A program made the translations under genes and the position numbers. The notes under the pieces are model-generated. The model saw only the letters and a list, made by a program, of their open reading frames with translations. It ran no database searches and was not told where the DNA came from. DNA of 64,000 bases from Bacteroidales bacterium (GTDB lineage Bacteria > Bacteroidota > Bacteroidia > Bacteroidales > G3-4614), in NCBI GenBank assembly GCA_017521245.1, contig JAFXDI010000048.1, forward strand, positions 1 to 64,000. The letters are read 5' to 3'. The first letter of the stretch is position 1; every line of letters starts with the position of its first letter. Shown here one piece after another: positions 16,723-17,301 of the stretch.

Positions 16723-16779
16723 AGTTTTAAATTTTTATATTCCCCTACTTTTATTATCAGTATTCTCTTATTACATACC

Positions 16780-16925
16780 AAAAGGTGCATTCCTGAATTT
16801 CTACCTTATAGATAGAGCAACAGAAATACACCTCCGAGATGGGGTGCATCAACTTTTGCTTCTCTCTACATTTATTCTGAAATTTGGTCGTTTTCGATTA
16901 CGAGAAATCAGCGATGCCTAATATG
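16780..16925 (-). ncRNA. Candidate small RNA or attenuator leader, copy A
   Basis: Read on the minus strand. A -7 box TAAGTTTG lies at 16932-16939, giving a start near 16925. A block GTAATCGAAAACGACCAAAT follows (16882-16901). A terminator-like hairpin then pairs 16821-16832 (GGTGTATTTCTG) with 16784-16795 (CAGGAATGCACC) over 12 bp with two G-U pairs, followed by TTTT. An upstream TGCACC (16843-16848) could pair with the 5' arm instead, giving a competing hairpin. Three blocks recur in the same order in copy B. The SUMF1-like gene starts 58 bp further on with no other promoter visible, so this may be its regulated leader. No match to a named RNA family is claimed. Confidence 0.4.
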
Positions 16926-17025
16926 TAAATTCAAACTTATTTTCTATTTAATTGCTTTTATATTTATTATCTATTCGTTTTTATTAATCAGTTTGTTAAT
17001 ATTATATTTTTTAATAATTACAAAT

Positions 17026-17185
17026 AAAAAAGGTGCATTCCTACGCTCATCCTATGTAACCGAGGTACGACCAAGCACCCAAATGCATTAAAACAAGCAA
17101 CAGAAATACACCCCATATAGGAGCATACTTATAACACTTGTTCATTAGCATTTTCTTAAATTGGTCGTTTTAGGTTACAAATGAA
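17026..17185 (-). ncRNA. Candidate small RNA, copy B
   Basis: Second copy of the same minus-strand arrangement. The -7 box is TACTTTTG at 17192-17199, and the start is near 17185. The conserved block CTAAAACGACCAA (17161-17173) comes next, then a hairpin pairing 17102-17112 with 17032-17042 and ending in six Ts (17026-17031). In this copy 17161-17178 is also complementary in two blocks of 7 and 6 bp to 17056-17074, which lies inside the loop of the terminator hairpin. This predicts a pseudoknot or alternative fold. It lies downstream of the terminator of the pgm unit, so it should not be read-through RNA. Confidence 0.4.
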
Positions 17186-17248
17186 CAATAACAAAAGTAT
17201 TTTTACAAAAATAATAATAATTTCTGAATTTATTATTATATCACAAAA

Positions 17249-17281
17249 AATAAGAGTTACACTATACGTGCAACTCTTATT
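17249..17281 (-). terminator. Terminator of the pgm / small membrane protein unit
   Basis: A perfect 10-bp stem (17249-17258 with 17272-17281), 13-base loop, and a run of Ts on the minus strand immediately after. Confidence 0.8.
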
Positions 17282-17301
17282 CATTCAAACATATGGTTTA
17301 T

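Follow-up and report, generated by a model that had tools for sequence, protein, structure and literature searches.

Among the RNAs described so far, transcription-terminating riboswitches and attenuators are the closest in layout to the elements reported here, with which they share a promoter, an anti-terminator and a terminator using a common strand, a U tract and a gene directly behind. The elements differ from them in having no known ligand, leader peptide or shared gene pathway, and the letters of their helices are nearly all free to vary. The Bacteroidales-1 and 6S RNAs (RF01693, RF00013) are comparable as long irregular rods in Bacteroidales, but the elements carry a terminator switch ahead of genes and match neither model. 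FopS is a multicopy group of small RNAs with an intrinsic terminator in the Bacteroidaceae, composed of a single-stranded 5' seed and one terminator hairpin and acting in trans (PMC11697453). Our elements resemble FopS in being a multicopy RNA family with an intrinsic terminator; unlike FopS, they have a five-helix rod, precede a gene and do not meet the criterion of a seed plus a single hairpin. The DUF805b RNA (RF02914) is a cis-regulatory motif of the Bacteroidota that adjoins two of the elements, but it is a separate motif of 35 nt. Finally, a bulk list of 3161 candidate structured RNAs from human microbiomes (Fremin and Bhatt 2021, PMC8040213) covers the same bacteria and may contain fragments of the element family, although the main text of that paper neither names nor describes it. 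A literature search yielded no description of the family, the supplementary lists of PMC8040213 lying outside the comparison; with this restriction the RNA family is apparently undescribed.

Results

Two related elements lie on the minus strand ahead of a SUMF1-like gene

The locus was found in a 64-kb stretch of Bacteroidales DNA, which as a whole is referred to as the window. The initial annotation had proposed that 420 bp without a credible gene contain two tandem structured units, copy B and copy A, which share three short blocks in the same order and are read from the minus strand. When the strand was read and folded over 16740-17300, all three blocks were present in this order in both units, and the absence of a credible gene within the 420 bp was confirmed. 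We built a covariance model (R1) from 28 elements of other loci, leaving out both window copies. Applied to the 64 kb, R1 gave exactly two matches, copy B (61.1 bits, E=1.7e-12) and copy A (26.3 bits, E=4.5e-4), which places the resemblance far beyond chance, and these matches, like all the shared blocks, were on the minus strand. The features of the locus are listed in Table 1.

Table 1. Positions of the leader features and of the downstream gene in the window
Feature	Position	Strand	Partner or remark
Copy B, whole (full family member)	17021-17213	-	
Copy B, -7 promoter box TATTTTTG (TAnnTTTG)	17206..17213	-	Retained in relatives G001 and G004
Copy B, H1 5' arm (terminator state)	17181..17188	-	17138-17145; from the terminator-forced fold
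Copy B, P1 5' strand	17173..17179	-	17055-17061
Copy B, P1b 5' strand ACGACCAA	17161..17168	-	17067-17074
Copy B, P2 5' strand	17148..17154	-	About 17081-17086
Copy B, segment A (H1 3' side, overlapping the P3 5' strand)	17138..17145	-	
Copy B, arm 1 (P5 5' strand, anti-terminator)	17120..17130	-	
Copy B, arm 2 (second block of the initial annotation)	17101..17114	-	Arm 1 (rod) or arm 3 (terminator)
Copy B, P3'	17090..17100	-	Segment A (rod) or tail (terminator)
Copy B, P4 hairpin GGTGC-TTGGTC-GTACC	17064..17079	-	Includes the P1b 3' strand, 17067-17074
Copy B, P1 3' strand	17055..17061	-	
Copy B, arm 3 (third block of the initial annotation; terminator 3' strand)	17032..17044	-	
Copy B, U tract	17021..17031	-	
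Box TAAGTTTG ahead of copy A	16932..16939	-	Strict box absent in G001 and G004
Copy A, whole (half-element)	16778-16917	-	
Copy A, unpaired P1-like 5' strand GTAATCGA	16894..16901	-	Complements copy B 3' strand TCGGTTAC, 8 bp
Copy A, unpaired P1b 5' strand ACGACCAA	16884..16891	-	No partner within copy A; complements copy B 17067-17074
Copy A, segment A (H1 3' side)	16860..16866	-	16902-16907
Copy A, arm 1	16843..16852	-	
Copy A, arm 2	16821..16832	-	
Copy A, arm 3 (terminator)	16784..16795	-	
Copy A, short U tract	16778..16783	-	TTTTGG in the window, TTTTTT in relatives
Gene for a secreted SUMF1-like (FGE-sulfatase domain) protein, 262 aa	15934..16722	-	PF03781, E=5.7e-47

The predicted fold of copy B was considerably more stable than that of dinucleotide shuffles (z=-5.8). 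In its minimum-energy form CGACCAA and TTGGTCG are paired within a long rod, and this rod is ahead of the fold with the terminator forced by about 9.5 kcal/mol (-55.9 vs -46.4 kcal/mol). The hairpin between the second and third blocks, originally regarded as the structure in which each unit ends, thus exists in copy B as an alternative and not as the minimum-energy fold. When it was forced, H1 and P4 formed unprompted, neither of them having been imposed. Since segment A is common to H1 and to the 5' strand of P3, these two pairings compete. The further arm that had been noticed inside the loop of copy B is TTGGTCG itself and finds its partner, CGACCAA, in the rod. Of the two possibilities raised for this arm, a pseudoknot or a switch, the switch is the better fit. 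As P1 encloses the helix CGACCAA:TTGGTCG in a nested arrangement, an obligatory pseudoknot was rejected, and according to the folding models the helix would be a pseudoknot only if P4 formed simultaneously. An invariant binding core made of CGACCAA and TTGGTCG was likewise discarded, as the model found members with other letters in that helix.

The family is widespread in the Bacteroidota and absent from Rfam

No Rfam 15 family was matched at gathering thresholds anywhere in the 64-kb window, with 6S and Bacteroidales-1 unmatched at the element, and across the element itself gathering scores gave no match, either at this locus or at 46 others. A permissive Rfam scan of the region returned only microRNA-like and snoRNA matches at chance level, and further permissive scans likewise did not rise above chance. 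RF02914 was found neither inside any scanned element nor in the window; the two matches that adjoin elements are located between copy A and the gene in the relative G004 (L007 1458-1492) and about 240 nt behind an element of Alistipes (L142 6950-6984).

DNA searches of related genomes showed that four further members of the genus have the locus; in more distant Bacteroidales the matches were short and corresponded to one part of copy B, GGTGCTTGGTCGTACC. The pair AACGACCAA ... CTTGGTCGTACC, spaced 66-96 nt apart, occurred 26 times, distributed over 21 of 393 Bacteroidales genomes; no match to the reversed pattern was seen in these genomes. In the public genome collection the pattern was present in at least 118 stretches; among the matches listed, 114 of 118 were from Bacteroidota, representing Bacteroidales, Marinilabiliales, Flavobacteriales, Chitinophagales and Cytophagales. 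A broader covariance model (R2, match threshold E<=1e-5) matched 93 of the 395 genomes in a class-level sample, with up to eight copies per genome, and 32 of 296 genomes in a second, phylum-level sample that overlaps the first. Four contigs catalogued as viral in IMG/VR (L186-L189) bear the element ahead of lipoprotein-like genes. A divergent single element, L104 106-233, whose P1b is apparently GTTTGGCG:CGCCAAAC, indicates that the diversity reaches beyond the models used.

The host genome itself contains at least seven elements. Besides the SUMF1-like locus, there are elements ahead of BspA-type genes, of a gene for a BIG_2 lipoprotein and of two genes encoding small proteins (66-71 aa). Three paralogous BspA-type leucine-rich-repeat genes of the host (contigs C12, C14 and C27; L195, L191 and L315) each have a leader of their own with a P1b of the class CTGCCA or CTACCAC; these copies are near contig ends, and the one on C27 scored 64 bits with R2. 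The leaders of the two small-protein genes (C17 and C8; L193 and L194), whose HTH-like products have no Pfam match, carry an identical P1b, ACCGCCAA:TTGGCGGT, and different P1 helices. In another genome of 1.9 Mb (G085) there are eight copies, and in the seven that were examined (L292, L306, L307, L319, L328, L329 and L337) the P1b sequence is different each time, as if cross-pairing were avoided.

Two sets of helices are maintained by compensatory changes

Constrained folds of 58 dereplicated elements agreed on a single plan comprising P1, P1b and then a rod of P2, P3 and P5, with a small P4 hairpin (GGURC...GUACC) surrounding the 3' strand of P1b. P1, which encloses the AACGACCAA/CTTGGTCGTACC pair, could be formed with 6-13 bp in all 133 elements considered, its letters differing almost everywhere among them. 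For P1b at least 60 distinct sequences were counted family-wide, with complementarity kept: the classes of the host genome and of Flavobacteria include CCGCCAA:TTGGCGG, CTGCCA:TGGCAG and CTGGTA:TACCAG as well as TCGGGAAA:TTTCCCGA, ACGTGAGAA:TTCTCACGT and others that still pair. With its own partner P1b formed 7-10 bp in 63 of 65 distinct sequences, against mostly 3-6 with swapped partners. When P1 and P1b were aligned as 62 joined fragments, 98.5% of the cells were paired vs 57% after shuffling and 27-38% after sliding, all 15 of the 15 pairs were altered on both sides somewhere in the alignment, and the covariation score was 1.033 compared with 0.214 for shuffled and at most 0.146 for slid partners. 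The choice of the best P1b stem as anchor for these fragments partly predetermines the 100% obtained for P1b, whereas the P1 figure is not affected.

Partner swapping in 164 dereplicated elements supported the remaining helices of the rod (P2, z=40; P3, z=19; P5, z=8) and also those of the terminator state (arm 2:arm 3, z=33; H1, z=17; P3':tail, z=12). The z values were not corrected for relatedness, and because plain MAFFT misplaced P2 and P3, the alignments used were subset and model-based ones. In the terminator state, arm 2 (of the GCGTGGG or GGGTGTG type), which complements arm 1 upstream, also complements arm 3 downstream; P3', the strand behind arm 2, complements both the 5' half of the rod and the tail behind P1'; and the 5' end of the RNA complements segment A, between P2 and P3, to give H1. 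The letters of segment A were 66% paired in the predicted rod. P4 was formable in 172 of 173 elements with compensatory changes of the kinds GGU:ACC, GGC:GCC, GGG:CCC, CGU:ACG and GCC:GGC. Arm 3 is followed by a U tract, counted as at least five T among the 10 nt behind it, in 154 of 174 elements vs 18.5% of background windows, and the terminator loop is long, about 55-85 nt. The helices thereby sort into two nested sets, P1, P1b, P2, P3 and P5 on the one side and H1, P4 and the terminator on the other, with arm 2 common to P5 and the terminator. Judged from the alignments, both of these mutually exclusive sets are conserved and backed by covariation.

The initial annotation had held that the absence of homologues with compensatory changes would refute a new family. 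Many such homologues with abundant compensatory changes were found, and together with the lack of an Rfam match they bear out the proposed new family of structured RNAs. Its view that the structure is kept and not just recently copied also stands, as the letters differ and the pairing stays; for the same reason, recent duplication was rejected as the sole cause of the resemblance between the copies.

Elements are placed behind a promoter and closely ahead of unrelated genes

The nearest downstream gene was on the same strand as the element in 109 of 127 and in 108 of 114 cases, whereas the upstream gene had this orientation in just 75 of 120. The distance from the core to the downstream gene was mostly 60-120 nt. 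A TAnnTTTG box, the promoter type of the Bacteroidota, was present in the expected zone of 144 of 245 elements, compared with 10.4 in shuffles. For copy B the proposal of such a box was right in kind and not in place: the one suggested at 17192-17199 was not retained in two relatives, and the box given in Table 1 was.

The downstream proteins were highly diverse (45 and 133 Pfam families in two sets of 92), and no common family, metabolic theme or pathway was apparent among the 184 scanned. The commonest were TonB-dependent receptors (8), response regulators (5), BspA-type repeat proteins (4), DNA methylases (4) and RibD-like enzymes (4), and lipoproteins and secreted proteins were numerous. 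PADLOC models of type III methyltransferases were matched by 5 of 92 downstream proteins. Elements ahead of DNA methyltransferase or restriction-modification genes (type III Mod, EcoRI-type) were seen at L256, L306, L152, L265, L278 and L279. In two Flavobacteria-type genomes (G716 and G708; L247-L253) every element checked precedes a SusC-like TonB receptor gene. The P1b of these elements is of the class CTGGTA:TACCAG or closely similar to it, and each element is adjoined by a small, oppositely oriented gene that is often HTH-like in appearance.

Copy A is a half-element that can pair with copy B

Both window copies belong to the family, but copy A is a half-element and not a second full copy. 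It retains H1, arms 1-3 and the 5' strands of P1 and P1b, and it lacks P4 and the 3' strands of P1b and P1. Its fold was again more stable than dinucleotide shuffles (z=-3.0), and a comparison of fold energies indicated that copy A favours its terminator. The order full element, half-element, gene was the same in all five genus members that carry the locus. In two congeners (G003 and G007; L240 and L241) a row of small secreted-protein genes behind the phosphoglucomutase gene replaces the element and the SUMF1-like gene; in this single comparison of congeners the neighbourhood was rearranged.

A full element followed by a half was also present in Bacteroides sp. 214, B. salyersiae, B. nordii, Candidatus Bacteroides merdavium and one further Bacteroidales genome, and a search of the sampled genomes for the tandem pattern gave one locus only. 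In each tandem the half-element keeps ACGACCAA without having a partner of its own for it, and between its P1-like strand and the 3' strand of the upstream full copy 6-8 bp can form. When half-elements were matched with loci from other lineages, the pairing was weaker in most but not all cases. This predicted pairing of the half with the 3' half of the full copy suggests, by inference, a two-stage switch. The idea remains suggestive, as it rests on roughly four independent lineages and a leftover from duplication is not excluded.

The box noted ahead of copy A does exist, but its strict form was not retained outside its closest relatives, while the box of copy B was retained (G001 and G004). 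As the copy A box is not conserved and that of copy B is, a single leader comprising B and A is likelier than two separate small RNAs. The probable arrangement in the window is one tandem leader, made up of both copies, for the SUMF1-like gene, which is likely the gene that these elements regulate.

Discussion

We estimate the probability at roughly 0.75 that the two copies, B as a full member and A as a half member, belong to a family of Bacteroidota 5' leader RNAs acting in cis as transcription attenuators. The family, its helices with their covariation, the exclusive pairings and the spacing of promoter and gene are established, as far as comparison of sequences can do so. Termination in the cell, the default state, the trigger and the tandem relay are inferred, and no transcript, termination or reporter data support them. 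RNA polymerase would start at the TAnnTTTG promoter. In the ON state the leader would zip into the rod of P1, P1b, P2, P3 and P5, with arm 2 held by arm 1, and the polymerase would continue into the gene. In the OFF state the 5' end would close as H1 and P4 upon itself, and arm 2 and P3' would pair with arm 3 and the tail, producing an intrinsic terminator before the U tract. Copy A, for which the rod is impossible, would terminate by default; its exposed 5' strands could pair with the 3' half of copy B, and the state of B may in this way reset the terminator of A. Some features do not sit easily with attenuation, namely the lack of a common pathway among the genes, unlike in most riboswitch regulons, the long terminator loop and the short U tract of copy A (TTTTGG).

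The initial annotation had left the choice between tandem small RNAs and a regulated leader of the SUMF1-like gene. Stand-alone small RNAs, with their own promoter and terminator, would act in trans, and the downstream gene would be incidental or reached by read-through. The promoter box and the terminator do delimit a unit of about 150-180 nt, the single-stranded segments of copy A could pair elsewhere, and multicopy small RNA families occur in Bacteroides (FopS, PMC11697453). However, the placement ahead of a gene is tight and strongly same-strand, the duplication of arm 3 by arm 1 is what an attenuator would be expected to show, and there is no accessible conserved seed, with nearly all of the sequence in freely varying helices. 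In the window, two independent small RNAs are made less likely by copy A, which lacks half of the fold and has an unconserved box. We consider such small RNAs improbable, and the regulated leader is favoured on account of the tight same-strand spacing, the exclusive terminator and anti-terminator helices and the promoter ahead of the full copy. A small-molecule riboswitch in the strict sense would be a special case of the attenuator: a metabolite or ion would bind to the P1/P1b/P4 junction, and this binding would select the rod or the terminator. The complex junction speaks for it, with a near-invariant GAAA before P1b, AAUUU after it and GGY and RCC around it, as does an expression platform built like that of transcription-terminating riboswitches. 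The absence of any metabolic theme among the 184 downstream proteins does not, and the very few conserved unpaired letters argue mildly, on present alignments, against a classical metabolite pocket. We regard this special case as rather doubtful without discarding it; given so few conserved unpaired letters, the trigger could as plausibly be a trans-acting RNA, a shared protein or an altered polymerase speed as a small molecule.

Two further explanations were considered and carry much less weight. If the fold were a recombination site or transposon end travelling with one cargo gene, the very diverse accessory cargo, methyltransferases included, the patchy distribution and the four matches in contigs catalogued as viral would be understandable. 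Such a cassette is very improbable, since gene and leader remain linked within genera (five related genomes show this for the SUMF1-like gene), the characteristics of promoter and terminator are conserved, both the G-U pairs and the compensatory changes indicate RNA, and no associated recombinase was found downstream. The 6S-like look of the rod, which has internal loops over about 170 nt, could point to a variant of 6S RNA (Bacteroidales-1), but the host has its own Bacteroidales-1 RNA elsewhere (C49, 146 bits), found once, RF00013 and RF01693 are unmatched at the element, RF00013 was not found in the genome, and the elements reach eight copies per genome and are placed ahead of genes. This variant can in our opinion be set aside almost completely.

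For attenuator leaders, a wider proposal can be made only tentatively, and we would sooner expect it to fail in some part than to hold as a whole: that they are self-contained RNA switches used across the phylum for the ON/OFF attenuation of unrelated accessory genes such as phage-defence methyltransferases, surface receptors and adhesins, that P1 and P1b differ from copy to copy for insulation, and that in tandems the half re-uses the 3' half of the full copy in a strand-exchange relay. The leader is found in 93 of 395 genomes sampled at the class level, yet Rfam does not contain it, nor, within the reach of the search made, does the literature. Its carriers include Phocaeicola vulgatus and Bacteroides species, which can be cultured and manipulated, and the at least 60 sequence-independent versions of one two-state switch could be used for studies of co-transcriptional folding and as gene switches in Bacteroides. 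If the leaders attenuate transcription, accessory and surface genes of major gut bacteria would be subject to a so far unrecognised level of control.
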